From Trissonchulus latispiculum (Eukaryota > Nematoda > Enoplea > Enoplida > Ironidae), in NCBI GenBank assembly GCA_030248195.1, contig JASAND010006862.1, positions 30,001 to 94,000 on the forward strand: 64,000 nucleotides of DNA. The letters run 5' to 3'. How positions within the stretch are numbered: position 1 is the stretch's first letter; each line of letters starts with the position of its first letter. Positions 32,496-58,514 of this stretch are shown here, one piece after another. The position numbers and the translations under genes were made by a program. The notes under the pieces were generated by a model that ran no database searches, was not told where the DNA came from, and saw only the letters and a list, made by a program, of their open reading frames with translations.

Positions 32496-32497
32496 GC

Positions 32498-40700: not shown

Positions 40701-41756
40701 GTTGAGGTAGATATTGAGGTTCCTGAAGATAAGAAGGAACATTTTGCTGAGATGACCCCTATATTTAAAAATGTAGAAATTACTAAGGAAGACATTGGGG
40801 ATCATATGAAATCTTTTTGCTAATTGAAATCTTATGAATCAACCGAGAAGGGGACTAATTGGGAGTTACTTTGGAAAGAAAATTCTTTTGGCTACTCCTC
40901 TAATTAGGTGGTATCTGAAACATGGGTTAAAAATTACTAAAATTTACCAGGCAATAGAATTCCAACCTAAAACCTGTTTCAAAGAATTGGGAGATGAGGT
41001 CTCAAAGGGGAAATGTTCAAACTTCTAGGAAATTCTTACTATGGTCGGACAATTACAAACTTAGAAAAGCACCAAGATGTAAAATATTGTCAAAGGTCAG
41101 GGGCTAGTAGAGAAGTAAATGGGTGGAGGTTTAGAAGACTAGATGATCTGGGAAATGGGGTATACGAAGTTCAATCAGCAAAGTCCAAAATTGTCTACCG
41201 ACTTCCAGAATTGGTGGGGTTCTTCGTTTACCAATACGCTAAGCTTAGGATGCTACAATTCTACTACGACTGCCTTAAACCAAATTTGTGGCCGGAAGCT
41301 TTCCAATTGTGTCAAATGGACACCGACTCCCTCTATTTCGCCTGCTCTTCCAAAAACTTAAGTGATTGAGTCCCTATTAGAAATGAAAAACAATGGCAAA
41401 AGGCCCTTAAAGATTTCTTTGTCCTAGACCCTTCCCAAAAACGAATACCCGCTTTGTTCAAAGAGGAATGGACCGGAGATGGTATAATAGCCCTTTGTAG
41501 TAAAACTTACCTAGCTTGGGGAAAGACGAACAAAGTCTCCCATAAAGGAGTGAGCAAGGCCCTAAATGAGTACACCCCCAAAGATTTTAAAGAGGTTTTA
41601 GAAACAGGAAATACAAAGTCAGGGGAAAATCGGGGATTCCTACATCCAGAAAACAAAACAGTCCAGTATCATCAAACTAAGGACGCCCTAGGCTATGTTT
41701 ACCCTAAAAGGAAAGTGCTAGCAGATGGGGTGAGTACTGCCCCCTTAGATATATAG
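37770..41756 (+). pseudogene. Family-B DNA polymerase with C2H2 fingers, heavily broken
   Basis: Starts at an ATG within TTATGTCTTCG. The N-terminal open part has three C2H2 fingers (C-P-S-C…H-x3-H, C-P-H-C…H-x4-H, C-R-K-C…H-x3-H) then W-x-x-I-R…YNFRL, NLSFGFV-x-R-N and RPNTKW blocks. Later fragments show Exo I (YDFECMF), an inserted endonuclease-like segment (VDGWVS…FHGCYFHGHGC), motif B (KLLGNSYYG) and motif C (MDTDSLYF). At least eight frameshifts or stops interrupt it between 38,880 and 41,450. The type is the protein-primed PolB of Polintons/adintoviruses, distinct from block A's. Nonfunctional. Confidence 0.88.
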
Positions 41757-41795
41757 CTTACATATGTCTAGTATTGGTTGTTGTGCTTGTTTATC

Positions 41796-42284
41796 CCAAC
41801 AGTCCTCCTTAGGAATAATGTATATAGTTGTATATAAATGTTGTGTGTAGAAAACAAAAAAAAGAATACAAAATAAAAATACAAAAACATTAGACTAGGA
41901 CCGGGCTTAGTTTGTACATATTATAGATACGTAGGCAGCTTAGATAGGTAAGTAGTGTATATATATAGGTAGGTAGATAGTCCTTAAATAGGCCGACGCC
42001 GGGTCCCAAGCCCCGGGGGAAGAACGCAGAGGGACGGAAAGGAAAGCAGTGATAAACCTATACGACTCGTTTTGAAATACTTACCTTCTAACCGATTGAT
42101 GGAAAAGAAAAAGATGGAATCCCTAGAGACAACAGACGGTATTGGAAAGAAAAATTTCAAACACAAACCCCAGGGGAGAAAAGATGGGATTAACAAAACT
42201 TTCAAACACAGATCTCAAGGGACTTTAAACTTTCAAGGTCATTGACTCCCGGAGTCAGGGTCGAAATGGCCCTCCTATACTACT
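41796..42284. repeat. Right terminal inverted repeat of block B
   Basis: Inverted relative to 27,370-27,908. Followed by the target duplication GACACC (42,285-42,290). Confidence 0.8.
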
Positions 42285-42290: not shown

Positions 42291-43186
42291 AAGTGGTTCC
42301 AGCCCGTCTGCATGATTAAATTTCTTTCAGCCAATGAAGGCTATTGGTCGACCCCACTGTGAGCCCAATTAAGTTTTTTATTTTGACCCCTATGTCACCG
42401 GTTTTCGCGTTTTTGAATTTGTCACAAACTCTGTGATCATATCTCACTATTCGTTCATTTTGACGCTTTGTCTCTATTATAATGTTTTATCTACGCAACA
42501 AGCGTTTTCGAATAATACCCATATTGGGGGGATCCCCGTTACTTTCAATTTTGGCCATTTGCAGCATCACCGTATTATGTAATTGCAAGTTACGTCACAT
42601 TTAGCTAGTCAGGAATTCAAATTTTCGCACACCCGGTCCTGACTTTTCTGGAAAGTGTCAGACACTCCAGCTCGAAAAAAGCGGAAACCTCTACAGCTGA
42701 CCGTTTTGGCTATTTTGGACCATTTTCGGCTCCAGAACTCAAAAGAAGAAACATTAGAACTATTATTACTATTACTATTACTATTGCTATCACTATTATT
42801 ACTCGTTATGGTAGACTATGGGTCTCTTGCGCAATTCCCCCCCAGCCCTAACTTTTAATTTTTTTTACCAATAACTTTGAAATTTTGTATGGGTGCATAC
42901 TAGAGGCTGATGAATTCAAAAATTCAAAAATTTTAAAATTTTAAAAAAATTTAAAAAAATTTTAAATTTTATTTTGGTAAGGGGGACCAAGGGGAACCGA
43001 AAAATGTTTTGAAAAAATTTTGCTGAAAACGTGCATACAGGGGTTTTCAGGGGCGCTGAGCACGAATCCGAAATCCGTTTTTCGATAAAGCTTTTTGTTA
43101 GCTCAGGAGAAGCTTACATCTTAAGCTTATAACTTTAGCTTATTTTAAGCTAGCGAAAAGCTGAATCGAAAAACAGTTTTCAGATT
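42291..43186. other. Host DNA between blocks B and C
   Basis: About 0.9 kb without a recognised gene. A degenerate ATT/ACT microsatellite lies at about 42,752-42,803; the leucine-rich frame over it is an artefact. A T/A-rich run is at 42,920-42,975. Confidence 0.45.
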
Positions 43187-43782
43187 AGTAGTATAGGAGA
43201 GATGAAATGGACATGGTTTGTACAGGTGTATCTTTGGATTCACTTTGGGTCATTAATCATACAGGTAAGGTCATTAATCATGGAGGCAGATGTTCTCAAG
43301 GTCATTGTTGGCCAATTTTCCCTTTAGCTTAGCTTAGTTTTCTAACATTGTATTAAAATTTGTAACAGTGTTATTGGACTGTATTGTCTAGGTATGTAAC
43401 TTTACCTATGTATATGTCTACATATTTAACTTTAAGTTTGCTAGACTATAGTTAGTTTACCTGCCTAATTAGTGTTTATTAATTAACTGCCTAAATAAGT
43501 AATATGAAGTAACATTTTCAAACTTTTTTCAAACTTTTTTATTTACCTGTAACCTGACTGTTTGCCAATAGATTCTTAATTATCTATCTCAGCATCGTAT
43601 AGACCAAAAATATTATTGCAAAATTTTCTTCCCTTATCAACTAAAATTTTCCACTTCTTGTCTCCTATTGAATTTCTTCATCTGGACCTTTGTATTAACC
43701 TTGAAACGGAAGACATGTAACAAACACTTAAAGAAGACAAGATTGTTACGTACTTCAGAATATACTGATGTTAAATTTTATT

Positions 43783-44360
43783 TAGCTGCCTTCTAGTGTT
43801 AGCACATCTTTAGCATACAGAGGTATCAAACCTGTCAAAAGTCTTTCTCCCTGCTTGCTTAAAATTTCCTCCCCCTGCTAGTTGTCTTCTAGTGTTAGCA
43901 TATCTTTAGCATACTGAGGACTCAAACCTGTCAAAAGTCTTTCTCTCCCTGCTTGCTTAAAATTTTTTACCTATTAGCTGCCTTCTAGTGTTATCATATC
44001 TTTAGCATACTGAGGACTCAAACCTGTCAAATTTTTCTCCTGCTTGCTTTAAAATTTTCTCCCTGCTAGCTGCCTTCTAGTGTTAGCATATCTTTAGCAT
44101 ACTGAGGACTCAAACCTGTCGAAAGTCTTTCTCTCCCTGCTTGCTAGCAGCCTTCTAGTGTTATCATATCTTTAGCATACTGAGGACTCAAAGCTGTCAA
44201 ATGTCTTACTCCCTGCTAGCTGCCTGCTAGTGCTATCATATCTTTAGCATACTGAGGACTCAAAGCTGTCAAGTCTTTCTCCCTATTAGCTGCCTTCTAG
44301 TGTTATCATATCTTTAGCATACTGAGGACTCAAACCTGTGTCTCCCCTGCTTGCTTAAAA
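43783..44360. repeat. Minisatellite in the left terminal repeat
   Basis: Seven to eight tandem units of 70-95 bp around the core CTTTAGCATACTGAGGACTC, preceded by a GCCTTCTAGTGTTATCATAT-like box and followed by CCTGCTTGCTTAAAATTTT. Mirrored at 57,270-57,930. Confidence 0.85.
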
Positions 44361-44439
44361 TTTTCTTCGCCTTAAGCTAGTCTTGATTGCACCTGTCTCA
44401 ATGAAATTAAAGACGTAAACAAGGAAAGGGGTAGAAACA

Positions 44440-45010
44440 TTGGTTGAAAATGAAAATTTTATGTCTCTAATTACGTAATATTGGCAACACTTATCACACT
44501 AATTTTGGTGTCAACGTAAAGAGCATGTGTTGAACTAACTTCGGTCACCTGTTGGTAATTATTGGTTGACTAATTAGTTAGTAATAATTGGTTAAAGTTG
44601 ACTATGAAAATTGGCTGAAAATGGGTGATTTTAATTTTATGTCTCCAATTACGTAAGATTGGGGAAACTTTATGTGATAAGTTTTATGTCAACGTAAAGA
44701 GCAAACTGTGAACTAACTTCGGTCAACTAATTTTGTTTAGTAGTTAGCTAATTAGTTAGTAATAATTTATTAAAGTTAACTATGGCTGAAAATGGGTGAT
44801 TATAATTTTATGTCTCCAATTACGTAAGATTGTTGACACATATTGGGTTAATTATGGTGCCTGTGTAATAAAGTAATAATGAACTAACTTCGGTCACCTG
44901 TTGATAATTATAGGTTAACTAATTAGTTAATAATAATTAAAGGTGACTATGAAAATTTGTGTGTAATGAATATGACAACAATTACGTGATAATTGGGAAT
45001 AGGCTAAAGG
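44440..45010. repeat. ~190-bp tandem repeat in the left terminal repeat
   Basis: Three copies of a unit containing GAACTAACTTCGGTCA, TAATTAGTTAGTAATAATT and TTATGTCTCCAATTACGTAA. Mirrored at about 56,640-57,200. May hold promoter or replication elements. Confidence 0.75.
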
Positions 45011-45230
45011 TTAAAAGAAAAAGAGTATACAACTTTTGTTCAATAATTAACTCCTAACTATGAACTGAACAAGGCAATACAAAATTGATATATGTGTACA
45101 GCCTATTTTATGAAACCTAGCACAAGAATGCTGCAAAGTTTAGACATATGTTGCAAGTTTGGTAGGATTATTAACCTTACTGACATTTGAATCACCAGAT
45201 TTGTTCACTTACTATACATCATCAGCAACA

Positions 45231-45940
45231 ATGAATTCCGGTAAGATATTTAATTGTAGCATTTTTATCCGTTGTATTTTTAATGATTGCATTTTAGTAG
45301 TTGTATTTTTTAGTCATTCAAATTTTTGAATTCTTGTATATTACAATTTTAAACATTACATTTTACAGTTTGAACATTTCATAGTTTTTAGATTAGCATT
45401 ATTTGTTGTGTGAAAATTATTACTTATGTTTCAGGTTCACCATCTGTGGAGAAGATCATTGATAATTTGGTTATTCTTTGTGATGAAATGGATCCCGCTC
45501 CAGTGGCAGACTACATGGTTGAACATCGGCGCATAACCCCGGATTATCGAGATATCATCAAGTCCGAAACAAGATACGATGGAGTGTTTGATCTCCTACT
45601 GCGACTGAAGCGGAGCAAAGATATCGTGCCCCTGCTCCACGAGGCCTTGGTGAAGTCGAAGCAGTACAACTTGGCCAAACTATTCGAAGGAGGAACGAAG
45701 GAGAAAGGAGTCACGTGGAAGATTTACACAAAGAGCAAATATTTGCTTAGAGAAAGCCAGGACACCTTCCCTACGGTACAAGCAGCGAGACTGGACGCAG
45801 CGATGGCCCTTGGACCCTTGGGATGCGACAACCGTGCCGTCGTATTCATCGAGTGGATTGGAAATTCTATGGTGAAACAATGGAATGTGCCGGAATGGTT
45901 CGTATCCCCATGGAATCACCAGGACTGTAAAGAACACTAA
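45231..45940 (+). CDS. CARD-domain protein with a spliced leader exon
   Basis: Exon 1 is 45,231-45,240 (ATGAATTCCG) inside the terminal repeat; intron 45,241-45,434 (GTAAGA…TTTCAG); exon 2 to the TAA at 45,940. The N-terminal ~85 residues fit a CARD/death fold: helices around KIIDNLVILCDEM, PVADYMVEH, ITPDYRDIIKS, GVFDLLLRLKR, IVPLLHEALV and YNLAKLFEG. A second domain (about 95-150) has the Trp strand and DTFPTVQAARLDAAMAL pattern also seen in block-B small proteins. CARDs join by homotypic contacts in inflammatory and antiviral signalling, so this could block or rewire a host pathway (inference). Intact, outermost gene on the left; expression would use the repeat-borne promoter. Confidence 0.75.
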
Positions 45941-46103
45941 CAATTATTGACAATTACATAGCATTACTAATGTACAGTAAACCATTGACTATTACTATTA
46001 TTATTATATTATGTACAGTAAACCATTGACTATTATTATTGCATAACACTGTAAGCCATTATTATTGAATAACAGTGTAGTATTGCATAATCACTGTAAA
46101 CCA

Positions 46104-46108
46104 TTGAC

Positions 46109-46177
<69 letters not shown>
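46104..46177. repeat. (ATT)n microsatellite
   Basis: About 24 perfect ATT units, between the convergent CARD and dsRBD-like genes. Confidence 0.95.
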
Positions 46178-46179
<2 letters not shown>

Positions 46180-46302
46180 GGTATTACTACTGTCCAGTAA
46201 ACCATTGAATAACAGTATTGCATTGCATAACACTGTAAAATGTTGCATACAGTAAACGAAATGTTACGGATAACATTAGTTGCACTTTTGGTAGGTAGGC
46301 AG

Positions 46303-46689
46303 TTAGCCATGAAAACACGGATTTTTGAGCATTTCTGCTTCTAGCCTGTCTAGCATATTGTAGATAGGTTGAATACTTCTGCGATATCTTTTGTATTCAC
46401 GTAGGTCCCTCATCTTATCCCTGACTGCATCAATTTCGTAGATATGAGGTCTTGGTGGTAGTCCGCATTCACGTCTGATGAGATGTTCGTCGCCGTGACA
46501 TAACGTACCATAGGCTTTACGAGACACCTCCTCAATGGCAGTACGTGGGTCAGGACATTGTGAGCTTGTCCAAGACTTACTGCCTATAGTCATGACTGCA
46601 ACATAATGACCGGTAATCTCAATGCGAATAGGTGGACTTTGGCGCAGGGCCTTTTGTAACAGTTCGTTCAACAGGCTTCGGGCAGACAT
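46303..46689 (-). CDS. dsRNA-binding-domain-like small protein
   Basis: 128 residues. Residues ~5-62 follow dsRBD order: a first helix LLNELLQKAL, three short strands (PIRIEITG, YVAVMTIG, SWTSSQ) and a second helix with R-x-A-I-E-E-V-S-R-K-A-Y-G-T-L. The basic K-K-x-A-K usually seen at the start of helix 2 is weak, so RNA binding is uncertain. The C-terminal half is a charged helical segment (MRDLREYKRYRRSI). Viral dsRBD proteins often hide dsRNA from host sensors; here only a possibility. Lies 6 nt downstream of the TBP-like gene on the same strand, likely co-transcribed. Confidence 0.42.
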   Translation of the reverse strand: MSARSLLNELLQKALRQSPPIRIEITGHYVAVMTIGSKSWTSSQCPDPRTAIEEVSRKAYGTLCHGDEHLIRRECGLPPRPHIYEIDAVRDKMRDLREYKRYRRSIQPIYNMLDRLEAEMLKNPCFHG

Positions 46690-46695
46690 GATGCA

Positions 46696-47190
46696 CTAAT
46701 GAACTTTAAACCTTATCACCTTCTTATTAACTAAAGACCTTGCATCTGATAGGGCAGACTCACTCCGAGCACCAGTTAATATGACCTTGCCAGTGTGGAA
46801 GATGAGTGCAGTAACCCCGGCAATCTTACACGTGAGACCATTAAATAGCTCCGGTTCATAGCAAACTTGATGGGTATGCCTGATACTTTCATATAAATCC
46901 CTTAGGTCTATATACCTGCCAACTGAGAAGGATCCCACCAGGTTCACCACTTCGCCTTCGCGAAGAATACCGACATTAAGAGCGCCTGCTAGTTGACGAA
47001 TACACTGATTAGCTCGTTCGATTGATTTACATCCGAGGCAAACAAAACTACCACTAGTGAATAATTGGAAAGTCGCCTCTTCGTGTTTCAGACTACCGCC
47101 AATAAATCCACGATAGAGTCTAATGTTAGGAATGTTCGTTAGGTGAAGTTCCCTGTCAAAGCGTCCACTGAGAACAACATTAACAATCAT
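46696..47190 (-). CDS. TATA-binding-protein-like factor
   Basis: About 164 residues from the first ATG (47,190). Two imperfect repeats, as in the TBP saddle. Repeat 1: MIVNVVLSGRFD…LHLTNIPNIRLY…ATFQLFTSGSFVCLGCKS. Repeat 2: VVNLVGSFSVGRYIDLRDLYES…VCYEPELFNGLTCKI…TALIFHTGKVILTGARS. The Y-E-P-E-L-F, hydrophobic strand, T/S-G-K-V-x-L-T-G-A-[RK] signature is characteristic of TBP. Repeat 1 is more diverged and lacks the canonical phenylalanine pair position by eye. A TBP fold binds and bends promoter DNA; here it may direct transcription of the element's TATA-type promoters. Intact. Start differs from an upstream non-ATG extension. Confidence 0.78.
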   Translation of the reverse strand: MIVNVVLSGRFDRELHLTNIPNIRLYRGFIGGSLKHEEATFQLFTSGSFVCLGCKSIERANQCIRQLAGALNVGILREGEVVNLVGSFSVGRYIDLRDLYESIRHTHQVCYEPELFNGLTCKIAGVTALIFHTGKVILTGARSESALSDARSLVNKKVIRFKVH

Positions 47191-47259
47191 TGTTACTCCC
47201 TTGGTATCCTCTATCTCCCACACTTATTAATGTGGAACACTAAGGTATCACCCCACGTC

Positions 47260-47267
47260 TATAAAAA
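47260..47267 (+). promoter_or_regulatory. TATA box for the 47,366 gene
   Basis: TATAAAAA about 100 nt upstream of the ATG at 47,366, in the gap between the divergent TBP-like and membrane-protein genes. Confidence 0.45.
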
Positions 47268-47365
47268 GCATGGTAGTAGGGCTAATACAAAGACGGCATC
47301 TAAGTTCTATGGTAATAAGAAGCGAATAGAGGTACTGTTAAAGTGCGCCGTACAAGATCCTGACT

Positions 47366-47815
47366 ATGGCTACTGGTGCAAATTCCCAAGAAGGGCATTC
47401 CTTTTTAAACTATACGAAACTCCAATTGGTCAAAGGAGTTCCCTGTATAATCACAAGCCTTCTCATAAAATTTTTATTGTCTACGATTGTATTAGCGATT
47501 TTGTTGTCACAGCATACCCAGTGTAAGCTACCACCACTGAAGGATTCCGTCACGGTAGACAATGCCATCTTTATTCATAATGGTTGGACTGAGCACCTTG
47601 TATCACTTGATAGTTTTCACGAGATCCGCCAATTCATCTATAACTGTCTAAACTTCCAGTGCCCAGTCTATATCAACGGGTCGATACCATGTCCCTACAC
47701 GTCCACATATAACGAGACAACTCTTTGCCTGGATCAAGATAAGCGTGTCCTTTGTGGCTTTGTTGGTCCTGTCAGTTTTACAGCAGACCAGATATACCAG
47801 CTCTATAGTCAATAA
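47366..47815 (+). CDS. Single-pass membrane glycoprotein candidate (upstream of ATPase)
   Basis: 149 residues. One hydrophobic segment (IITSLLIKFLLSTIVLAILL, about 28-47) followed by an ectodomain with Cys pairs (YNCLNFQC, IPCPY, LCLD), N-glycosylation-type sites (NGS, NET) and GPVSFT…YQLYSQ at the end. Same place and layout as 36,467 in block B. Type II topology likely. Candidate surface protein of the virion or infected cell; no fold assigned. Confidence 0.62.
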   Translation: MATGANSQEGHSFLNYTKLQLVKGVPCIITSLLIKFLLSTIVLAILLSQHTQCKLPPLKDSVTVDNAIFIHNGWTEHLVSLDSFHEIRQFIYNCLNFQCPVYINGSIPCPYTSTYNETTLCLDQDKRVLCGFVGPVSFTADQIYQLYSQ

Positions 47816-47866
47816 GTAGGCCTACGATACTGGTGTAAATACCACATTTATTCCATATATTGCACC

Positions 47867-48082
47867 ATGGGTATCTATAAGGCACTCCAGAGCCTGATCC
47901 GCCTCAGCCGCTATCACAAGAATAAATGCAGACGATATCCGAGGCAAAAGATAATCATTTCTATTCCTGGCATTGGATGGCGACGAATTCTACATGTCGA
48001 TATGAAGCAACTGATCAATGAAGACGAAGTAGTGGAAGAACTTATTCTCGATGATGAAGATATGATGGATACTACGAAATGA
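47867..48082 (+). CDS. Small hypothetical protein (71 aa)
   Basis: Basic N-terminal half (S-R-Y-H-K-N-K-C-R-R-Y-P-R-Q-K) and acidic C-terminus (E-E-L-I-L-D-D-E-D-M-M-D). ATG start, 50 bp after the membrane-protein gene. No counterpart seen in block B at this position. Coding is likely from composition and placement, but unproven. Confidence 0.4.
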   Translation: MGIYKALQSLIRLSRYHKNKCRRYPRQKIIISIPGIGWRRILHVDMKQLINEDEVVEELILDDEDMMDTTK

Positions 48083-48281
48083 TGATGATACAAATATCAC
48101 GAAGAATGATACGAAGACAGATAACGAAGAACAAATTTGACACTATGATGACTATTGTGTATGTATATATGTATTGTGTTTTGCACTGTATGAAGAAATA
48201 TGACCCTATAGTGACTAATCGTTATTGTGTTTTGCACTACAATAAAGTCATATAAACAGCGTTGGTGTTTTCATAGTAAGT

Positions 48282-48932
48282 ATGGAGAGAGTTAGGACAC
48301 CAAAGTTTCAGCATCCGTTCACGTGTATCGTGGCGGCTCCAACAAAGGCAGGAAAGACCACCTTTGTGTCACGACTGGTAGAACATGCAGATGAAATGAT
48401 ATCAGAACCTCCAGAGAAGATTATTTGGTGTTATACTGAGTGGCAAGATGCATATGATAGACTTCCCCAGGTAGAATTTATCAAAGGTCTACCGGATCTA
48501 GAGAAATTGAAAACCCCTGACGCAAAGTTGGTAGTACTTGATGATCTGATGAGCGAAATTAAGCAGCAACCTAACCTTGTTCAACTATTCACCCGAGGTT
48601 GCCACCATTGGTCCTGTAGTGTCATCAATATCACTCAAGACATCTTCTACGATAGGCAGCGGACTAATAGGATAAATAGTCAGTATATTGTCCTCATGAA
48701 GAATCCAGCCGATAAGCTAACCCCGATGAACTTGGCAAGACAAATGTATCCAGGTAGAGTGAAAGGATTTATGGAAGCTTTTGAGCATGCCACTAGTCGA
48801 CCGCATGGATATCTACTGATAGACCTAGACCAGAACACACCAGAAAAACTCCGCCTCAGAGGGCATATTTTCCCAGATGATCCTTACACTGACGTATATT
48901 CCATAAAAACTGACAATATCAAGAAAGAATAA
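48282..48932 (+). CDS. FtsK/HerA-type DNA packaging ATPase
   Basis: 216 residues. Walker A APTKAGKTTF (about 20), the aromatic WCYTEW segment, Walker B KLVVLDDLM (about 87), LFTRGCHHWSC, ITQDIFYDRQRTNRIN, an arginine-containing sensor region, and YIVLMKNPADKL. Polinton/adintovirus-type packaging motor of the A32/HerA clade. Intact, 2 nt before the next gene. Confidence 0.95.
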   Translation: MERVRTPKFQHPFTCIVAAPTKAGKTTFVSRLVEHADEMISEPPEKIIWCYTEWQDAYDRLPQVEFIKGLPDLEKLKTPDAKLVVLDDLMSEIKQQPNLVQLFTRGCHHWSCSVINITQDIFYDRQRTNRINSQYIVLMKNPADKLTPMNLARQMYPGRVKGFMEAFEHATSRPHGYLLIDLDQNTPEKLRLRGHIFPDDPYTDVYSIKTDNIKKE

Positions 48933-48934
48933 TC

Positions 48935-49270
48935 ATGGATCGTTTTGAAAGAAATATCGATACACTGCGACTATTGTGTCGTTGCAAAAGTCGTAAGCAA
49001 AGAGAGGCAATTGTTCTTCATGGAAGTTCCGACCTCATTAAAGCTATTTGTGACTGTGCAGAAAATATCCTCTCTGGCAACGTAAAGATATCCCAGAAAG
49101 ACAAGAAGAGATTAGCAAGATATAAACACGCCCTAAGAGCACTACGAAAGAAACGAGTCAGTCTTAAGAAGAAGAAGAAACTAATCATTCAGCACGGAGG
49201 ATTTTTACCAGCTCTCCTGGGACCTATTGTAGGTATTGTCAGTGGACTGCTCGGAAATCTCATAAGATAA
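48935..49270 (+). CDS. Conserved small protein with hydrophobic C-terminal tail
   Basis: 111 residues, same length and motifs as 35,399: CRCKSRKQREAIV, N-I-L-S-G-N-V, a basic central region (K-R-L-A-R-Y-K-H-A-L-R-A-L-R-K-K-R), L-K-K-K-K-K-L-I-I-Q-H-G-G, and tail ALLGPIVGIVSGLLGNLI. Possible membrane-active or core protein. Confidence 0.7.
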   Translation: MDRFERNIDTLRLLCRCKSRKQREAIVLHGSSDLIKAICDCAENILSGNVKISQKDKKRLARYKHALRALRKKRVSLKKKKKLIIQHGGFLPALLGPIVGIVSGLLGNLIR

Positions 49271-49300
49271 TAAAAACTGACACTGGTGAGCAAAGCAACG

Positions 49301-49828
49301 ATGGAATACTCAATACTAGTTAAGCCAGACTACTTTGATGAGCACACAAGGGTGTTGGAGAAGGAAGCTAGCAATGTTCTCAAGTCTAAACTACCAGCAG
49401 ATATCAAGAGTAAATTGTTTAAACAGGCAGACTACAGGCGTCGAATACTACGAGATAGACCAACGGAGATGACCGTGAAGTCCCATGCTATGCCAGACAT
49501 TGTATCTACCTTACCCCCAACACTACAGCAGAAGGGTAGGCATCTGATTGAACATATCATGAGTATACCAGGTCTCAAGGTTAACAGTCGAGGTGAAATA
49601 GAGTATCAGGGTCAGCCAGCAGTTGGATCTAGAATATATGATCTGATTCACGACTTCATTCGCAACAGACCCAGTCAACCACCGGCAACAGGGTGGCAAA
49701 CATTGGCAAAGGCACTAAGAGACAGCAACGTACCTCGAGAACTTATCGGAAATCCACGGTACATAAATATACAGACAGGTCAAGGAATTAGGTCAGCCCT
49801 AAGAAAACTCAAATGGAAGCGGCACTAG
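49301..49828 (+). CDS. Conserved Polinton protein of unknown function (MEYSILVKP family)
   Basis: 175 residues from the ATG at 49,301, chosen because it matches the block-B start. Shared blocks: MEYSILVKP-x-x-F-D-x-H, Y-R-R-R-I-L-R-D-R-P, DIVSTLP-P-T-L-Q-Q-K-G, SRIYDLIHDFIRNR, DSNVPREL. Basic C-terminus. It ends inside the integrase start (16-nt overlap). Confidence 0.7.
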   Translation: MEYSILVKPDYFDEHTRVLEKEASNVLKSKLPADIKSKLFKQADYRRRILRDRPTEMTVKSHAMPDIVSTLPPTLQQKGRHLIEHIMSIPGLKVNSRGEIEYQGQPAVGSRIYDLIHDFIRNRPSQPPATGWQTLAKALRDSNVPRELIGNPRYINIQTGQGIRSALRKLKWKRH

Positions 49829-50964
49829 AGAATACTGATAATAATACTAACAATAATAATACTGCTAATGGTAATACTAATAACACCACCTTAGAGAAGA
49901 TTTACTATGATCCGCAAAGTCCTGCAGCATTTGGCGGTATTAATCGGGTGTATCAGGAGGCAAAAAGACATGGAATCTCGAGGTCCAAAGTCACTGATTG
50001 GTTGGAGAAACAGTACACTTACAGCATCCATAAACCAGTTAGACACAGATTCCAAACGAGGAGGTATCAGGTGGCCGGTATCGACGACCTATGGCAAATA
50101 GACCTGGCAGATATGGTATCTATAGCAGACAAGAATGATGGCTACAAGTACCTATTCAACTGCATTGACGTCTTCTCCAAGTACGCATGGGTGATCCCAG
50201 TTAAAAGCAAGGGTGGTCAAGAGATGACTAGAGCTTTTCGTAAAATATTGGCAGATGGCAGACGACCACAACACCTACAGTCAGACAGAGGCAAAGAATT
50301 TTTGAACAAAGATTTCCAGTCACTCCTCAAGGCGAACCACATCAACTTTTATACATGCAATAATCCAGTGATCAAGTGTAGCCTCGTTGAGCGTTTCAAT
50401 CGAACCATCAAGACAAAGATATGGAAATACTTTACAAAGACCAGATCGTATAGGTACATTGACGACCTTCCTCAACTCGTGGAAGGCTACAACAATGCTC
50501 GCCACAGGAGTATTCGTATGACGCCAGTGGAGGCATCGAAACCTGAAAATATGGAAGAGGTGGCGCTATATGCATCCCGTGGAGAAAAAAGAACCCAGAG
50601 TCAGCCAAGTGAAAATAAATTAAAGAAGGGAGATATGGTCCGTATTAGCAAAACAAAGGGTCTCTTTGACAAAGGATACCTCCCTAATTGGTCAGAAGAG
50701 TTGTTCCGTATCAGAAGTGTCAGGACAGGTGACCCACCCATGTACCTCCTAGAAGACTATGGTGGCGAAGAGGTGGTCGGTGGATTCTACCAGCCTGAAG
50801 TACAAAAGGTTGACGAACCAGACACCTATTGGGTAGAAAAAGTTATAAAAACCAGGCGTCGAAAGGGTCGTAAAGAGTATTTTGTCAAGTGGCTTGGATA
50901 CCCTGACAAGTTCAACAGTTGGATAACTGAAGACAATGGATTTTTACCTATACCTACCCAGTAA
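49813..50964 (+). CDS. Retroviral-type integrase with C-terminal chromodomain
   Basis: 383 residues. An Asn/Thr-rich N-terminal stretch (about 5-30), an HTH-like region around SRSKVTDWLEKQYTY, then the rve core with Asp (LWQIDLADM, about 97), Asp (LQSDRGKEF, about 157) and Glu (KCSLVERFNRT, about 194) in D,D-35-E spacing. The C-terminal part has a chromodomain (YWVEKV…KEYFVKWLGYPDKFNSWI) that may bias target choice toward certain chromatin. Intact, so this copy could encode an active integrase. Confidence 0.95.
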   Translation: MEAALENTDNNTNNNNTANGNTNNTTLEKIYYDPQSPAAFGGINRVYQEAKRHGISRSKVTDWLEKQYTYSIHKPVRHRFQTRRYQVAGIDDLWQIDLADMVSIADKNDGYKYLFNCIDVFSKYAWVIPVKSKGGQEMTRAFRKILADGRRPQHLQSDRGKEFLNKDFQSLLKANHINFYTCNNPVIKCSLVERFNRTIKTKIWKYFTKTRSYRYIDDLPQLVEGYNNARHRSIRMTPVEASKPENMEEVALYASRGEKRTQSQPSENKLKKGDMVRISKTKGLFDKGYLPNWSEELFRIRSVRTGDPPMYLLEDYGGEEVVGGFYQPEVQKVDEPDTYWVEKVIKTRRRKGRKEYFVKWLGYPDKFNSWITEDNGFLPIPTQ

Positions 50965-51700
50965 TACAGCAGACTATCCAACAAACAAACTGCACAATTT
51001 CCGAGTCAAACTTCCTCATCGTGTTGACCTCGAAGGCGAATGGGAGGTGGCACTTGTAGAGCTCGGATATCCTGTCACCTGGTTCAATGTAGGAAACAAG
51101 GATGATGCAAAACTTGGAGTGACAGTTGGTAAGAAGACCTTCCACGGGCATATCCCACTAAACAACTATGAGTCAATATTTCAACTCTGTGATGCCATCA
51201 ACTATACCCTTGAGCTAACAAAGAAGATCAATTGTGAATTGGCCTACGATGAACTTCATAGACGTGTCGGACTTAAACCTACTACCCTAGATGAAGAACC
51301 AGACTTTAAGGCGTTACACTTTAGTAAACAACTAAAGTATATGCTAGGATACTCTGACACAAAGGTCGTACCAAAGGAAAAGACAGTCTCACCACCTAGA
51401 TACGCAGTGGCCGCTAATGCACCAGACCTGAGAGGCGGACTATATTCCCTCTTCATATACTGCGACGTGGTGGCACCGCAAATGATAGGAAACACCATTG
51501 CTCCCATCATTCGTGTTGTCAGTATCGAGGGTAAGCATAATGATACTGTTGATCGAATATACAATAATCCACACTATATACCAGTGCTAAGAAAGGAGTT
51601 TGATAGTATTGAAATACATATAAAGGATGATCACGGTATGGCGGTAGACTTTGAGTACGGAAAGGTCTTTGCTAAGTTACACTTCCGAAAGCGAAGATGA
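50936..51700 (+). CDS. Penton-like minor capsid protein 1
   Basis: 254 residues. MDFYLYLPSNT…NFRVKLPHRV…GEWEVALVEL…YPVTW at the N-terminus, DAINYTLEL, a GGLYSLFIYCDVVAPQMIGN block and HYIPVLRKEFDSIEI…KLHFRKRR at the end. Single-jelly-roll vertex protein of Polintons, the ortholog of the block-B gene at 32,915. The ATG lies 29 nt inside the integrase frame. Confidence 0.88.
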   Translation: MDFYLYLPSNTADYPTNKLHNFRVKLPHRVDLEGEWEVALVELGYPVTWFNVGNKDDAKLGVTVGKKTFHGHIPLNNYESIFQLCDAINYTLELTKKINCELAYDELHRRVGLKPTTLDEEPDFKALHFSKQLKYMLGYSDTKVVPKEKTVSPPRYAVAANAPDLRGGLYSLFIYCDVVAPQMIGNTIAPIIRVVSIEGKHNDTVDRIYNNPHYIPVLRKEFDSIEIHIKDDHGMAVDFEYGKVFAKLHFRKRR

Positions 51701-52482
51701 GTTTCTACCTGTATGTGACCGGAAAGGACGGAACCTTTGAGAACCAGCTAGCTCACCCTCTGCATCTACATGGCAGGTGGTCCGTTGCAATGGTTGACTT
51801 TATCTATCCTCACACTTGGAAAGCCATTAATTCTAATGCAGACACATTCATCATAGTCCTATTTGAGGCAGACGAGAGAGCAGTTAGTAATATACCCAGG
51901 CGGAGATACTATAACCTTCACGATCTGATAAATACCATCAACCTTACCATTCAGTCAATTCTTAATGAACGTCAGGAATCACCTCCTATACGTTTCGTCT
52001 ATGATCAGGAAAAGGATCGAGTCTACCTAGACTTATACGAAAATCCAGAACACCTTGAAAGACCCAACTTCGGGTTTATTCAATTTGCTCCTACCATTGT
52101 ACGCATGCTTGGCTTTGACTCTCAGAAATTCACAGTAGAGGATGGCAGAGATGCCCTGAGGACAAAGAAATTCTACGCACAACGTCCACCCAGCCTTAAC
52201 TTTCATTATCTTCAAGTCCATTGTGATATCGTGAAAGAACAACTGGTGGGCACAACTACCGGCAACCTGCTGGCAGTAGTAAAGGCGGGTGAAGAGTATG
52301 GGAATACCATCCAGTACTCTCCAGAACCTCACTACGTCCCTGTGAATAAGCATGTGATCAATAGCATTAAAGTCCATATAAACAATCACATTGGCAGGAG
52401 TGTACATTTTGAGTATGGTAGTATAGTTATCAAGTTACACTTCAAGAAAGATGAGGACCAGATATCATCCAGAAACCGTTGA
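51697..52482 (+). CDS. Penton-like minor capsid protein 2 (tandem paralog)
   Basis: 261 residues, overlapping the first penton gene by 4 nt (ATGA). Same scaffold: MSFYLYVTG…HPLHLHGRWSVAMVDFIYPHTW, DLINTINLTIQ, FHYLQVHCDIVKEQLVG and HYVPVNKHVINSIKVHINNHIG…IKLHF. Divergent (perhaps a quarter identical by eye) and without a counterpart in block B. A duplicated vertex protein could specialise for attachment or for the unique portal-like vertex (speculative). Confidence 0.75.
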   Translation: MSFYLYVTGKDGTFENQLAHPLHLHGRWSVAMVDFIYPHTWKAINSNADTFIIVLFEADERAVSNIPRRRYYNLHDLINTINLTIQSILNERQESPPIRFVYDQEKDRVYLDLYENPEHLERPNFGFIQFAPTIVRMLGFDSQKFTVEDGRDALRTKKFYAQRPPSLNFHYLQVHCDIVKEQLVGTTTGNLLAVVKAGEEYGNTIQYSPEPHYVPVNKHVINSIKVHINNHIGRSVHFEYGSIVIKLHFKKDEDQISSRNR

Positions 52483-52837
52483 AGACTGGCAACTGCACCT
52501 GATACAGAGAGGGTCTGGTTTCTACGCCGGCCAAAGGTATCAGCGAGGAGATGGCCTAGGCAGCCTCTTGAGAGGTATTGGACGCTTTATTTGGCCAGTA
52601 GTACGTCGTGTAGGTCTAGAGGCAGGCAGGCAGGCCTTTCAGACAGCCGGAGATGTGGCTCGTGATTACTTGAATAGAGGTGAAGATCCAAAGGAAGCAC
52701 TCAAACGACATGGGAAGGCAGCCATTGGACGCCTGCTGGAGAACAGTGGAAAGGCAATACAGCAAGGAGAAGGCATTGGAAGCAGACCACATAGACGCAA
52801 AGTTAAGAGATTGAAGCGCGATATTTACAGCCCATAA
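52451..52837 (+). CDS. Minor structural protein (pVI/pX-like)
   Basis: 128 residues. YQRGDGLGSLLRGIGR, a hydrophobic-amphipathic segment ending VRRVGLEAGRQAF, DYLNRGEDPKEALKRHGK, a QQGEGIG motif, and a basic tail (H-R-R-K-V-K-R-L-K-R). Overlaps the preceding gene by 32 nt in another frame. Homolog of 32,498. Probably a protease substrate and internal capsid component (inference). Confidence 0.65.
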   Translation: MRTRYHPETVEDWQLHLIQRGSGFYAGQRYQRGDGLGSLLRGIGRFIWPVVRRVGLEAGRQAFQTAGDVARDYLNRGEDPKEALKRHGKAAIGRLLENSGKAIQQGEGIGSRPHRRKVKRLKRDIYSP

Positions 52838-52882
52838 AAACCCGCCCTATGTAATACCAATTATATACTAACAATTATTTCA

Positions 52883-54202
52883 ATGGCTAAGCAAGTAGAT
52901 GAACGGTCTATGCCGGGCTTCAAGTCCGAAATGGATCTCTTCTCGCTACCTCCAACTCAGGTCAGTGTGGAGAGTGGCTATATGGCAGAAATTTATCCCC
53001 TAAATCCTGTAACCAGTAATGGTCCATACCTATTCCTTGTACCAAAGGATTCTTATATGCTTGACCTGAACCGGAACTACCTTTACCTAAAGCTACGGAT
53101 AACTGATAGTGATGGAAAGGCAGTAGCAAAGGCAGCCGACGGTAGTATCTCAGTGGCACCCATCAATATGCTAGCAAAGTCATTCATTAGACGATTAGTG
53201 GTCAAACTATCCGACAAGGAAATTTACAACAGTGGAGACCTTTATCACTATGGAGCGTACCTGGAGACTATCGCCAACTTTGGGAAAGAAGCAAAGACGT
53301 CTCACCTACAGAGTAACCTATTTGCAAAGGATAGTGATTTCAACGATATCTCCACTACGGCAGCTAAGCATCGGGGTATACCATTTACAGATGGCCGGTA
53401 TGTAGTAGTGGCAGGACCCCTTCATTGCGACCTCTTCAAGCAAGACCGATACCTTCTGAGTGAGTGCCAGTTGAGTCTGGAATTACACCGTAACAGTGAC
53501 GACATCCTCCTCCAGTCAGCAACCAGTGGATACAAACTTTTAGTCGACGATATACGTTGGTATGTGTGGAAAGTCAGACCACAAGACTCTCTCACCATGG
53601 CAATTGAGGGTGTACTGAGAGACCATGAGACGGCCAAGTATCCAATCAGGAGGACTAAACTGGTGACAAGGCATATCGCTCCTGGTGTGCAGACTGTTGT
53701 TGAGAATTCCATATTCACCGGTCAACTCCCACGTAGAGTCCTAGTGGCAATGGTCAAGTCAGAGGCATTCAATGGAAGTCAGAAGCATAATCCCCTCGAG
53801 TTCCAACACTGTAATGTCAGTGAGATTGCCCTAAAGTATGGTGATGAGTTTGTCCCAAAGCAGCCAATGAAGATGGCATGGGATAAGTTCCAGTATACGA
53901 TGCCCTTCATATACCTCTACGAAGGCAACGATATGGCCGGATCCACCAAGGGAGCAGACATTTCCTACGAAGACTTTGCCAAGGGATACACTATTTTTGC
54001 CTTTGACCTGACACCAGACAATATTGATACAGGGGCAATGCAACTGATCAAGGAAGGTGATGTGTCACTGAGGATGCAACTGGAGAAGGCCCTACCAGCC
54101 GCCACTTATCCCCAGGGTGTAGAAATCATTATATACGGAGAATTTGATAATCTCATATCAATAGACTATAATCGGACACCATTCTTTGACTACGCACTAT
54201 GA
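52883..54202 (+). CDS. Major capsid protein (double jelly roll)
   Basis: 439 residues. MPGFKSEMDLFSLPPTQV, PKDSYMLDLNRNYLYLK, VKLSDKEIYNSGDLY, TKLVTRHIAPGVQTVVENS and ending DYNRTPFFDYAL. Ortholog of the broken block-B gene and typical of Polinton/adintovirus hexon proteins; length is near the usual for the family. Intact, and its last codons overlap the protease start (ATGA). Confidence 0.94.
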   Translation: MAKQVDERSMPGFKSEMDLFSLPPTQVSVESGYMAEIYPLNPVTSNGPYLFLVPKDSYMLDLNRNYLYLKLRITDSDGKAVAKAADGSISVAPINMLAKSFIRRLVVKLSDKEIYNSGDLYHYGAYLETIANFGKEAKTSHLQSNLFAKDSDFNDISTTAAKHRGIPFTDGRYVVVAGPLHCDLFKQDRYLLSECQLSLELHRNSDDILLQSATSGYKLLVDDIRWYVWKVRPQDSLTMAIEGVLRDHETAKYPIRRTKLVTRHIAPGVQTVVENSIFTGQLPRRVLVAMVKSEAFNGSQKHNPLEFQHCNVSEIALKYGDEFVPKQPMKMAWDKFQYTMPFIYLYEGNDMAGSTKGADISYEDFAKGYTIFAFDLTPDNIDTGAMQLIKEGDVSLRMQLEKALPAATYPQGVEIIIYGEFDNLISIDYNRTPFFDYAL

Positions 54203-54663
54203 ACACCCGTGAGATCCTTGAGACTTTAAGGAAAGATTGCAAAGTTCCTCTCCTAGGAGTATTTCCCAGTGATAAGCTACCACGGTACCGTCCAGGATGT
54301 CTTGTTGCTAACACTGAGGCATCCGGTCAGGCTGGTGAACACTGGGTTGCAATGTGGCTAGAGGATAACAGGGTAGAATATTTTGACAGCTACGGACTAC
54401 CACCTCTCCTCTTCATGTCATACATTGGCAGGAGGGAACTACAGTATAATCGCATTCAGTTGCAAGATTTCACTACTGATGTATGTGGGGAGTACTGTAT
54501 ATACTTCCTTCACCACAGGTCCCGAGGAAGATCAATGGACTCAATTGTCAACTATCTGAGGCGAAGAAGCGACACTAATGATAACATTGTCAAGACCTTT
54601 GTTGATCGGGTGACACTAGAACCCACACCTTACTGCCAGAAATCCCATAAAAAGTCAAGGTGA
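54199..54663 (+). CDS. Adenain-like cysteine protease
   Basis: 154 residues. His in GEHWVAMW (about 53), Asp in EYFDSYG, Cys in VCGEYCIYF (about 97). Overlaps the capsid stop by 4 nt. About 12 residues longer at the C-terminus than the block-B enzyme, with a basic tail (SHKKSR). Intact catalytic triad. Confidence 0.93.
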   Translation: MNTREILETLRKDCKVPLLGVFPSDKLPRYRPGCLVANTEASGQAGEHWVAMWLEDNRVEYFDSYGLPPLLFMSYIGRRELQYNRIQLQDFTTDVCGEYCIYFLHHRSRGRSMDSIVNYLRRRSDTNDNIVKTFVDRVTLEPTPYCQKSHKKSR

Positions 54664-54699: not shown

Positions 54700-55038
54700 A
54701 TGTTGCTACTACTGAGCCTAATCGCTATAGTGTCATCTGTAGACATTACAGAGACCGACAATGGTATTCAACTATCTCATGGCAATGTTACCACCGTAGT
54801 AGAAAGTGATCACCTGTACCGCCGACTAGAGGACTGTAGTCTACACCTGTGTCGCGAGGGTGGTCTAAGCCATAGATCTAATGCCTGTCACTACATTGAA
54901 TGGGATCAATGTTGGGAGTACTGTTACGATACTGACAGACGCCTTCAGTCTATCCACGATAAAATGACTGGCTTTAAGATTGCCAACACCACAGAACTTG
55001 AATACCTACGTGGTGCCCTAAGTGAATACTACTACTAA
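54700..55038 (+). CDS. Secreted or membrane-anchored cysteine-rich protein
   Basis: 112 residues. N-terminal hydrophobic signal (LLLLSLIAIVSS), then a Cys-rich ectodomain: DCSLHLC, NACHY, a DQCWEYCYD block and an R-L-Q-S…GFKI…ELEYLRGAL end; two N-x-T sites. Same position after the protease as 30,432 in block B, with similar Cys spacing. Layout loosely resembles the 47,366 ectodomain, suggesting a small surface-protein family. Function unknown. Confidence 0.58.
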   Translation: MLLLLSLIAIVSSVDITETDNGIQLSHGNVTTVVESDHLYRRLEDCSLHLCREGGLSHRSNACHYIEWDQCWEYCYDTDRRLQSIHDKMTGFKIANTTELEYLRGALSEYYY

Positions 55039-55364: not shown

Positions 55365-56406
55365 TTAATGCATATTTACTGCACAATGGCCAGTCAAACA
55401 GTACAGTGTAACCATCATATTAGTAATTTCATGTACAACAAACTTAGTGTTAGGACGCTGTTGAAACGCCCATTCAATATGATCTTTGCTTTCAATATCG
55501 TCAATAAACCGATCCAGTTCTGCTCTGCTGGAAATGAGGCGAGGTAAGGTAAACAGGGAAGTGTTGTTGCTGGCGTAGTAATATATCAATTCATCGTTCA
55601 GTATATTTCTGAGGATGAAACCAAACGAAACATTCCATTTAGACCTGTACTTGTGGTCTAGGAATACTGACAGGAGGGCTTTCTCTATTTCCTTCATGGA
55701 CGTGGTCTTCAGGCGAAAGTTGTATTGGCGCATAAACTTCTTGATGATGTGGTGGGTTCTGATTTGATACCAGTTGGCTTGGTAAATCTCACTGGCATCT
55801 GGTGGAGGGTCAGTAGGGTCTTCCTCCAATGGATCTCCGCTGGTAGGTGGATGTTCCTTTTCAATATGTTCCTTGAGCCGGTCTTCTCTCAGGAATTTAT
55901 CTCCACATTGTTCGCAAGGAAATGTTTCAGGATGGTTTCGTTTGATGTGGTTCTGTAGGTTCTGTGGTCGCTCAAATGATTTACTGCATTCTGGGCATAT
56001 GATTGGTTGAGAATGAGCAGTCTTCTTGTGGAGCCGTAGCTGTCGTTCATTAGGGAAAGTGATTCCACAAGTGTCGCAGGAAGTCGGTTGGTGTTGACGT
56101 CGAATGTGCTTCAGGAGGGCGTGATTTCGCTGGAAGGTTGATGAGCAAGTAGGGCATTCAAACTTTCCACGTGAACCTGAAACAGTTCAGCAACAAATAA
56201 TATTTAACAATACCTAAAATCTAAAAAACTATGAAATGTTCAAACTGTAATATGTAATGTTTAAAATTGTAATATGTACAACTGCTAAAAATGTGACGAT
56301 CAAAATTTGAATGACTAAAAAATACAACTCCTAAAATGCAATCATTAAAAATACAACGGATAAAAATGCTACAATTAAATATCTTACCATTTTCCACAAA
56401 ATTCAT
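55365..56406 (-). pseudogene. PolB N-terminal remnant with four C2H2 fingers and a leader exon
   Basis: Exon 1 is 56,406-56,388 (ATG plus six codons) inside the right terminal repeat; intron 56,387-56,177 (GTAAGA…TTTCAG); exon 2 to the TAA at about 55,365. Exon 2 has four C2H2 fingers (C-P-T-C, C-D-T-C, C-P-E-C, C-E-Q-C, each with paired His), then W-x-x-I-R-T-H, YNFRL, NVSFGFILRN, ELIYYYAS-N-N and RPNTKF blocks that match the N-terminus of block-B PolB. It stops just after ITNMM, so exonuclease and polymerase regions are gone; an (AAT)n tract lies beyond. The remaining frame is open, so it might still be made as a truncated zinc-finger protein. Confidence 0.82.
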
Positions 56407-58514
56407 TGTCACGGTGATGTAAAGTAAGTGAACAAATCTGGTGAAAGTCAATGTCAGTAGGGTTAATAAACCTACCAAACTTGCAATATATGTCTAAACT
56501 TTGCAGCATTCTTGTGCTAGGTTTCATAAAATAGGCTGTACACATATATCAATTTTGTATTGCCTTGTTCAGTTCATAGTTAGGAGTTAATTATTGAACA
56601 AATGTTGTATACTCTTTTTCTTTTAACTTTCAGCCTATTCCCAGTTTCACGTAATTGTTGTCATATTCATTACACACAAATTTTCATAGTCACCTTTAAT
56701 TATTATTAACTAATTAGTTAACCTATAATTATCAACAGGTGACCGAAGTTAGTTCATTATTACTTTATTACATAGGCACCATAATTAACCCAATATGTGT
56801 CAACAATCTTGCGTAATTGGAGACATAAAATTACCATTTTCAGCCATAGTTAACTTTAATAAATTATTACTAACTAATTAGCTAACTACTAAACAAAATT
56901 AGTTGACCGAAGTTAGTTCAACACATGCTCTTTACGTTGACATAAAACTTATCACATAAAGTTTTCCCAATCTTGCGTAATTGGAGACATAAAATTAAAA
57001 TCACCCATTTTCAGCCAATTTTCATAGTCAACTTTAACCAATTATTACTAACTAATTAGTCAACCAATAATTACCAACAGGTGACCGAAGTTAGTTCACG
57101 GTTTGCTCTTTACGTTGACACCAAAATTAGTATGATAAGTTTTCCCAATATTACGTAATTGCTGTCACAAAATTTTAATTTTCAACCAATGTTTATTGTT
57201 TACGTCTTTAATTTCAATGAGACAGGTGCAATCAAACTAGGTAAGGCGAATTGGTAAGAAACTTTAAAAAGGGAGAAAGATGACAGGTTTGAGTCCTCAG
57301 TATGCTAAAGATATGATAACACTAGAAGGCTGCTAGCAGGGAGAAAAAATTTTAAACAAGCAGGAGTAGAGGGAGAAAGACTTTTGACAGGTTTGAGTTC
57401 TCAGTATGCTAAAGATATGATCACGCTAGAAGGCTGCTAATAAGGAGAAAATTTTAAACAAGCAGGGAGAGAAAGGCTTTTGACAGGTTTGAGTCCTCAG
57501 TATGCTAAAGATATGATAACGCTAGAAGGCAGCTAATAGGGAGAAAGACTTTTGACAGCTTTGAGTCCTCAGTGTGCTAAAGATATGATAACACTATCAG
57601 GCTGCTAGCTGGGAGAAAATTTTTAAACAAGCAGGCAGCTAGCAGGGAGAAAGACTTTTGACAGGTTGGAGTCCTCAGTATGCTAAAGATATGATAGGAC
57701 TAGAAGGCTGCTAATGGATTTTAAACAAGCAGGGAGAGAAAAACTTTTGACAGGTTTGAGTCCTCAGTATGCTAAAGATATGATAACACTAGAAGGCAGC
57801 TAGAGGAAAAAACTAGCAGGCAGCTAATAGAGAAAAAATTTTAAACAAGCAGGCAGCTAGCAGGGAGAAAGACTTTTGACAGGTTGGAGTCCTCAGTATG
57901 CTAAAGATATGCTAACACTCGAAGGCTGCTAACATCAATATATTCTGAAGTACGTAACTAACAATCTTGTCTTCTTTAAGTGTTTGTTTCCTGTCTTCCG
58001 TTTCAAGGTTAATACAAAGGTCCAGATGAAGAAATTCAATAAGGAGATGCAAGAAATGGAAAATTTTAGTTGTTAAGGGAAAGAAAATAATTTGCAATAA
58101 TATTTTTGGTCTATACGATGCTGAGATAGATAGGTAAGAATCTATTGGCAAACAGTCAGGTAAATAAAAAGTTTGAAAAAAGTTTGAAAATGTTACTTGA
58201 TTAATTTATGTACTTAATTAGGCATATAATTAATAAACACTAATTAGGCAGGTAAACTAACTATAGTTAGAATACTTAAAGTTAAATACAACTAGGTACA
58301 AATACGTAGACAATATAGTCCAATAACACTGTGTTAAAAATTTAATACAATGTTACAAAGCTTAAATCCAAGCTAAGAAAATTGGCCAATAATGACCTTG
58401 AGAGACATCTGCCTCCATGATTAATGACCTTACCTGTATGATTAATGACCCCCAAAGTGAATCCAAAGATACACCTGTACAAACGCGGTCCCATTTCATC
58501 TCTCCTATACTACT
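56195..58514. repeat. Right terminal inverted repeat of block C (about 2.3 kb)
   Basis: Inverted copy of the left repeat, ending CTATACTACT. Contains the mirrored minisatellite (57,270-57,930) and ~190-bp repeat (56,640-57,200), and the first exon and most of the intron of the PolB remnant. Confidence 0.85.

Follow-up and report, generated by a model that had tools for sequence, protein, structure and literature searches.

A TATA-binding protein homologue carried by Polinton-type elements of the nematode Trissonchulus latispiculum

The window analysed here is a 64,000-nucleotide stretch of Trissonchulus latispiculum DNA (assembly GCA_030248195.1, contig JASAND010006862.1, positions 30,001 to 94,000 of the forward strand), and all coordinates are positions within it. 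It holds a 15.3-kb Polinton-type element (element C, 43187-58514) that carries a TATA-binding protein (TBP)-like gene. The features of element C are given below, with identities to a second element of the window (element B) and to a contig of another source (L001).

43187..45440, unstranded: left TIR, beginning AGTAGTATAGG
45410..45940, + strand: weakly CARD-like ORF, starting inside the left TIR (PF00619 E 0.1, below cut-off, N-terminal part)
46303..46689, - strand: ORF128, 128 aa, directly 3' of the TBP gene and co-oriented with it
46696..47190, - strand: TBP-like gene, 164 aa, two TBP repeats
47366..47815, + strand: ORF149; element B holds a weak homologue (29% identity across 52 aa, E 7e-4)
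48282..48932, + strand: putative A32/FtsK-type packaging ATPase, Walker A-like APTKAGKT
48935..49270, + strand: ORF111, order conserved with L001 (42% to L001, 47% to element B)
49286..49828, + strand: ORF180, GTG start with an ATG at 49301, order conserved with L001 (32% to L001, 55% to element B)
49813..50964, + strand: retroviral-type integrase with chromodomain (PF00665 5.8e-15, PF00385 7.1e-10)
50936..51700, + strand: putative minor capsid protein 1, by position (36-40% to L001)
51697..52482, + strand: putative minor capsid protein 2, by position (30% over 80 aa to L001)
52451..52837, + strand: small basic ORF, order conserved with L001 (41%)
52883..54202, + strand: major capsid protein (MCP), putatively of DJR type (PF21738 E 0.016, below cut-off)
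54199..54663, + strand: putative adenovirus-type protease (PF00770 E 0.096 here and 7.4e-4 in L001, both below the curated cut-off)
54700..55038, + strand: ORF112, ORF only
55365..55829, - strand: PolB N-terminal remnant (41% to element B 38316-38708)
56171..58514, unstranded: right TIR

The core genes of element C run in the order putative ATPase, ORF111, ORF180, integrase, two minor capsid proteins, small ORF, MCP and protease, with the TBP gene and ORF128 at the left and divergent to them. The assignments of the putative ATPase (Pox_A32 E 0.058) and of the protease combine Pfam scores below cut-off with conserved gene order and homologues; the ATPase homologues of element B and L001 are 64% and 48% identical. 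An MCP profile built with element B yielded 842 homologues, and some of the 120 listed carry PF21738. The two putative minor capsid proteins are 30% identical to each other. The MCP had no match in phage records, PHROGs gave no match below E 0.09, and Rfam and tRNA scans of the window found nothing.

The TIRs, of about 2.3 kb, share 84% identity (43185-45440 against 56171-58516, over 2426 columns). The flanks of the window copy (CAGATT and AAGAGG) differ, so a target-site duplication is absent there; the 6-bp duplication is also absent at the C1355 copy, whereas the C9334 copy (14,687 bp end to end) has AACACA on both sides. The left end of the C2059 copy was not found within the 1.5 kb of sequence examined. 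A full PolB is absent from element C. Four of the four other copies examined on that side (L036-L039) likewise have a short PolB remnant, with frames of at most 280 aa, and a fifth copy (L040) has its remnant on the opposite side. Because PolB is reduced to a remnant, we term the window's family a PolB-less Polinton-type element.

For ORF128, which occurs in 15 further stretches across loci of this family, there was no Pfam match, the PDB search was of no help, and a single-sequence AF2 model was uninformative (pLDDT 41). The best PDB row for the CARD-like ORF was 'DpHF7 filament' (5e-4); this ORF is duplicated or variable in copies L005, L015 and L041, and it may modulate host cell death or immunity.

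Element B (27370-42284), a related Polinton-type element, lies in the opposite orientation to element C and has GACACC at both flanks. It is decayed, with decayed homologues of the core genes and pieces of PolB, and no TBP gene was found in it. Genes for NADAR (28166-28669) and YqaJ/alkaline exonuclease (28696-29433) are also present. A third viral element (1-10643), cut by the window start, carries PolB, dUTPase, NADAR and protein-kinase genes, with no TBP within the window.

By sequence and by its high-confidence predicted fold, the product of 46696..47190 is a TBP homologue. The initial annotation had read a TBP signature and two saddle repeats in this protein and had proposed structure prediction as the check. 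PF00352 matched it in two tandem stretches (Pfam, 99.9 bits against a curated cut-off of 22.9), and structure prediction returned the pseudo-two-fold TBP saddle with high confidence and no unrelated fold; these two results rule out an unrelated alpha/beta fold or a chance resemblance. The predicted model was nearer to cellular TBPs (TMq 0.74-0.91) than to the 50 viral models listed from BFVD (0.39-0.82). No Polinton appeared among the named rows of those best 50, of which 18 are nameless, so that the absence of Polintons there is not demonstrated.

We then compared individual residues with yeast TBP. F29, F44, F116 and F131 of the element TBP align with yeast F99, F116, F190 and F207; N4, N83, E112, E114 and L115 have the yeast state; and the Y-E-P-E-L stirrup is kept at residues 111-115. 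We take the four Phe to serve in DNA kinking and intercalation, the YEPEL stirrup to contact TFIIB, and yeast K138, Y139 and K145 to contact TFIIA. The last three residues are not kept in the alignment, being Q, L and V in the element TBP; archaeal TBP differs at two of these three positions too, so TFIIA contacts do not define all TBPs. The DNA-facing side of the element TBP is altered at T124 (L), L114 (Q), R98 (G) and K120 (S), its first repeat is shortened, and it has FHTGK where cellular TBP has FVSGK. The four Phe and the TFIIB glutamates of TBP are also treated in PMC12529657. Loss of TFIIA contacts with retention of the TFIIB stirrup would suit a partial competitor, that is, an interference factor that competes with or sequesters host TBP or TFIIB and damps host transcription or defence while the element's genes use host TBP. 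However, the element TBP retains all four intercalating Phe and the two central Asn, which mere TFIIB titration would not need.

Next, we looked for copies across the 733.8-Mb assembly. The genome searches list the best 150 places (two TBP searches) and the best 96 places (MCP); these lists give minimum counts, and fragments are among the rows. The element TBP was found at 150 places at least, 58-100% identical, and among the 150 listed, 121 were stop-free and 106 were both stop-free and at least 150 aa long. Among the 96 MCP places listed, 23 scored as high as the MCP of the window itself, and 89 were at least 95% identical over the matched part. A TBP gene lay divergent and upstream within 10 kb at 70 of these 96 MCP copies (63 of the 70 TBPs being stop-free), at a median distance of 5671 bp, against 0.4 such pairs expected from random placing; for the other 26, there was no TBP among the TBP places listed. 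Two further pairs, each with MCP and TBP on the same contig, were arranged differently. The search for orthologues beside Polinton capsid genes that the initial annotation had proposed thus succeeded at these 70 loci, all in the same genome, and also in L001. The element family is large and recently multiplied, with TBP at a fixed place, and the large number of intact, nearly identical copies within this genome points to recent activity.

With at least 96 capsid-gene places and 23 identical proteins, yet PolB remnants only in four of four other copies examined on that side, elements of this family may be replicated in trans. In one stretch (L016, on C4513), two TBP-ORF128-CARD blocks lie as inverted repeats on either side of ORF149, an arrangement suggesting that copies have recombined head-to-head.

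To describe the surroundings of the gene more widely, we selected 20 stretches from the 150 places listed by the other of the two TBP searches, so as to cover a range of scores and lengths. In 19 of the 20, TBP adjoined a core Polinton-type gene, whether ATPase, integrase or MCP; L016 was the exception, where the genes beside TBP were only ORF149, ORF128 and the CARD-like genes known from the window's family. Core Polinton-type genes were adjacent at six of six automatically chosen non-host TBP loci of that search as well. Three arrangements were found: TBP divergent and beside ORF149 and the ATPase (the window's family); integrase-TBP-minor capsid-MCP (the integrase-adjacent lineage); and integrase-ATPase-NADAR-TBP-minor capsid-MCP (the NADAR lineage). 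PolB-like ORFs were present in the copies examined of both other lineages (tblastn), and that of L043 (1408 aa) had no Pfam match at 0.01. Two loci have run-on frames, joining TBP with a minor capsid protein in one case (L024:3913-5124(+)) and NADAR with TBP in the other (L025:3964-4917(-)).

The position of TBP directly downstream of the integrase gene in one lineage would fit a role in integration or in DNA packaging or replication, for example a chromodomain integrase steered to promoters via TBP-TFIIB/TFIIIB contacts, and some retrotransposons are steered by TFIIIB. Gene order elsewhere makes this role distinctly improbable: in the window's family other genes separate TBP from the integrase and the two are divergent, and in the NADAR lineage it adjoins the NADAR and minor capsid genes.

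Relatives outside this genome were few. L001 is an 11.6-kb contig in the Planctomycetota bin Dive96_bin10.66, where it is probably misbinned, and it was the sole MCP relative from the genome-contig scan. Its gene order is that of the window's element minus one of the two minor capsid genes, and its TBP (PF00352 1.9e-45) is divergent to the ATPase. The window TBP alone, searched against 5.8 billion proteins, had no match among 66 candidates; a search with both TBPs (window and L001) gave 27 proteins including L001's own, the other 26 being known as proteins alone, and one of the 27 came from a 13.6-kb contig of the mite Dinothrombium tinctorium. A viral contig collection scanned with TBP and MCP queries gave no confirmed relative. 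Many of the metagenome TBP-like proteins (P0121-P0147) have FH[ST]GK for FVSGK and a shorter preceding loop, a combination that may mark element-borne TBPs.

We then asked how the element TBPs relate to the host's own TBP, which is encoded in exons at C14517 and lies near animal TBP (best PDB match of its second repeat 1nvp_A, 2e-53). In a tree of 44 sequences, with some copies only per lineage and L024 cut to its first 190 residues, host TBP grouped with yeast and three metagenome TBPs (support 95/84). A clade of host TBP with an element lineage was rejected for each of the three lineages (P = 0.0003, 0.00004 and 0.025), these tests having been named after the tree was inspected. A single clade of all three element lineages (C+N+T) was not rejected (P = 0.09), and C+N grouped together without support (26/75). 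The gain of TBP is thus compatible, as judged from these sequences, with one or several events. L001 and the window TBP were also considered as nearest relatives, but one clade of the two was rejected (P = 0.0014) despite their like position beside the ATPase.

The median dN/dS of intact copies was 0.139 in one lineage (13 sequences, 74 of 78 pairs) and 0.151 in a second (5 sequences, 10 of 10 pairs). In the third, it was 0.127 (5 sequences, 4 of 10 pairs usable), and the pooled pN/pS was 0.33 with saturated pairs. L007, L009, L024 and L025, whose frames are truncated, split or run-on, were left out, as was L029, where no ORF passed the filter; since only intact frames entered, the result describes active lineages and not dead copies. 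Together, the tree tests and dN/dS indicate an old association of the TBP gene with these elements and purifying selection on it.

These results bear on whether the gene is a recent host TBP copy (a retrogene) hitch-hiking in one element. In favour of this reading is the ordinary, exon-built TBP gene of the host at C14517. However, the element TBP is 26-30% identical to cellular TBPs whereas host TBP is near animal TBP, the gene occurs in three lineages and on the foreign contig L001, and the rejection of a host-TBP clade for all three lineages counts against recent capture. We reject a recent capture and regard such a retrogene as extremely improbable; an ancient capture may still have occurred.

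Finally, we examined the regions upstream of the element genes. In element C, the motif [TCA]ATAAAAA[CG] occurs before six genes, and its conservation was followed in other copies.

47260..47268, + strand: TATA-like motif TATAAAAAG before ORF149, 106 bp upstream
48902..48910, + strand: TATA-like motif CATAAAAAC before ORF111, retained by 11 of the 12 other copies compared
49269..49277, + strand: TATA-like motif before ORF180, placed relative to the ATG at 49301
50844..50852, + strand: TATA-like motif before minor capsid 1, kept in two of two other copies of this family
52833..52841, + strand: TATA-like motif before MCP, kept in four of four other copies
54646..54654, + strand: TATA-like motif before ORF112, 54 bp upstream; present at 42-54 bp in seven of seven stretches, which are five copies (C2059 and C18808 each enter twice)

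At the ORF149 site, TATAAAAAG is retained at -106 in 10 of the 15 other stretches; three, whose upstream regions are only 63-64% alike, carry CATAAAAAG at -41, and two have none. ORF180 was measured from its GTG start in the copy comparison, so its motif fell outside the region tested.

Between 47191 and 55040 of element C, the nine-letter motif occurs six times in sense (0.45 expected) and never in antisense; element B has seven in sense (1.19 expected) and L001 three (0.61 expected, P = 0.03). The motif was devised after element C and L001 had been viewed, so its counts in these two are not unbiased. We also scanned for 7-mers, free of this bias, in the 15-130 bp before each gene, with 200 shuffles. 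ATAAAAA was the top 7-mer in element C, where it precedes 6 of 15 genes against 0.31 expected and outscores all 200 shuffles. It was also the top 7-mer over elements C and B and L001 together, preceding 13 of 41 genes against 2.21 expected, with a score of 6.2 where the highest shuffle reached 6.0; it was not the top 7-mer in element B alone or L001 alone. Canonical TATAWAW was enriched in L001 (9 in sense against 2.6 expected, none in antisense) and not in element C (4 against 4.0 expected) or element B (6 against 4.1).

The other two lineages differed from each other. Among copies of the NADAR lineage, which are related and not independent, TATAAAA was the top 7-mer in two, at 7 of 11 genes (above all shuffles) and at 5 of 10 (just below the 95% line); in a third copy it was not the top, and TATAWAW preceded 3 of 7 genes. 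The integrase-adjacent lineage showed no TATA-like enrichment (0/9 and 1/9 genes in one copy, 0/15 and 3/15, with 1.2 expected, in a second).

The TBP fold, DNA face, TFIIB stirrup and TATA-like boxes, taken together, make promoter recognition with host TFIIB and RNA polymerase II likely. We consider it fairly probable that this Polinton-borne TBP, long resident in the elements, binds the element's TATA-like boxes and recruits host TFIIB and polymerase. After activation of the element, its TBP would bind the boxes upstream of element genes ([TCA]ATAAAAA[CG] in the window's family, TATAAAA in the NADAR-bearing family); the bound TBP would recruit host TFIIB and RNA polymerase II, and the structural genes would be transcribed independently of, or in competition with, host TBP/TFIID. 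The presence of intact TBP in many Polinton-type copies likewise suggests that the elements help choose their own promoters. The earlier proposal that the element supplies its own promoter-recognition factor has become likelier through purifying selection, the contact residues for DNA and TFIIB and the TATA-like motif, and is weakened by the one TBP-bearing lineage that lacks the motif.

The motif data also bear on the interference factor described above. Element B has the nine-letter motif without a TBP gene, so the motif may serve host TBP, and the TBP-bearing lineage without a TATA-like motif would also fit interference. Enrichment of the motif in the TBP-carrying family speaks against it, as do the retained Phe and Asn, and we judge interference unlikely.

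Promoter recognition by the element TBP could also take a narrower form of temporal control, in which an early TBP switches on late structural genes only, like the vTBP of beta- and gammaherpesviruses; KSHV ORF24 is so described in PMC12529657. In element C, the motif precedes MCP, minor capsid 1, ORF111, ORF180, ORF149 and ORF112 and does not precede TBP, integrase, protease or ATPase, as such control would predict. However, it precedes the ATPase in element B and L001, and a TATA box precedes 7 of the 11 genes in the NADAR-lineage copy above, which leaves the narrower form improbable. In its broadest form, which we put forward tentatively and hold somewhat less likely to be right than wrong, promoter recognition by element TBPs would be an old, element-specific system of small animal Polinton-type elements: a viral TBP that reads a TATA-like code of its own (CATAAAAA in one family, TATAAAA in another), maintained by selection in at least three lineages of differing gene order and bypassing host TBP/TFIID for the structural genes.

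If this is true, elements as small as 15 kb have an initiation factor specific to a virus. The viral TBPs that we found described are from large viruses, and the elements here presumably use host Pol II. Promoter choice, beyond capsids and integration, could then be element-encoded, and the element TBP would give a small and tractable system in which to study TBP specificity and the frequency of TBP uptake by viruses.

Compared with Polintons/Mavericks and adintoviruses, the window's family has TIRs, a chromodomain rve integrase and, putatively, a DJR-type MCP and protease-type and ATPase-type genes in common, and differs in being without a full PolB. The initial annotation knew of no TBP in a Polinton or adintovirus, and in the available text of the open-access Polinton, PLV and adintovirus literature searched for TATA/TBP, we found no report of a TBP in a Polinton. 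With cellular TBP (PF00352; human, yeast and archaeal), the element protein shares the two repeats, saddle fold, four Phe, central Asn pair and YEPEL stirrup; it differs in sequence, as noted above, in having 164 aa and in being encoded by a mobile element.

The statement of the initial annotation that some giant viruses have TBP homologues agrees with the BFVD matches and with PMC11410667, which places TBPs in three plus four families of large double-stranded DNA viruses. Giant viruses, asfarviruses, iridoviruses and ascoviruses have a virus-encoded TBP fold in common with the element, theirs in large double-stranded DNA viruses and this one in a 15-kb element. Viral TBPs are also described from a megavirus (PMC11464507) and from Yellowstone Lake algal viruses (PMC4602308), TBP is given for 59% of mirusvirus genomes (PMC10132985), and TBP genes are reported in green-alga elements of putative mirusvirus origin (PMC10675990). 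Mirusviruses have genomes of up to >400 kb and HK97-fold capsids (PMC10132985), whereas the elements here probably have DJR-type capsids.

By analogy, two systems may serve as working models for the element TBP. Chrysochromulina parva virus BQ1, a larger algal virus, encodes both TBP and TFIIB, and its authors think that host RNA polymerase is redirected (PMC12085832); no TFIIB gene was found among the scanned ORFs of element C. The herpesvirus vTBP (ORF24/UL87) has the viral TBP fold in common with the element protein, and, according to PMC12529657, KSHV ORF24 selects TATT late promoters, a variant TATA motif. ORF24 is there described as lacking the TFIIB glutamates and having N- and C-terminal domains, whereas the element TBP keeps the glutamates and has no extra domain.
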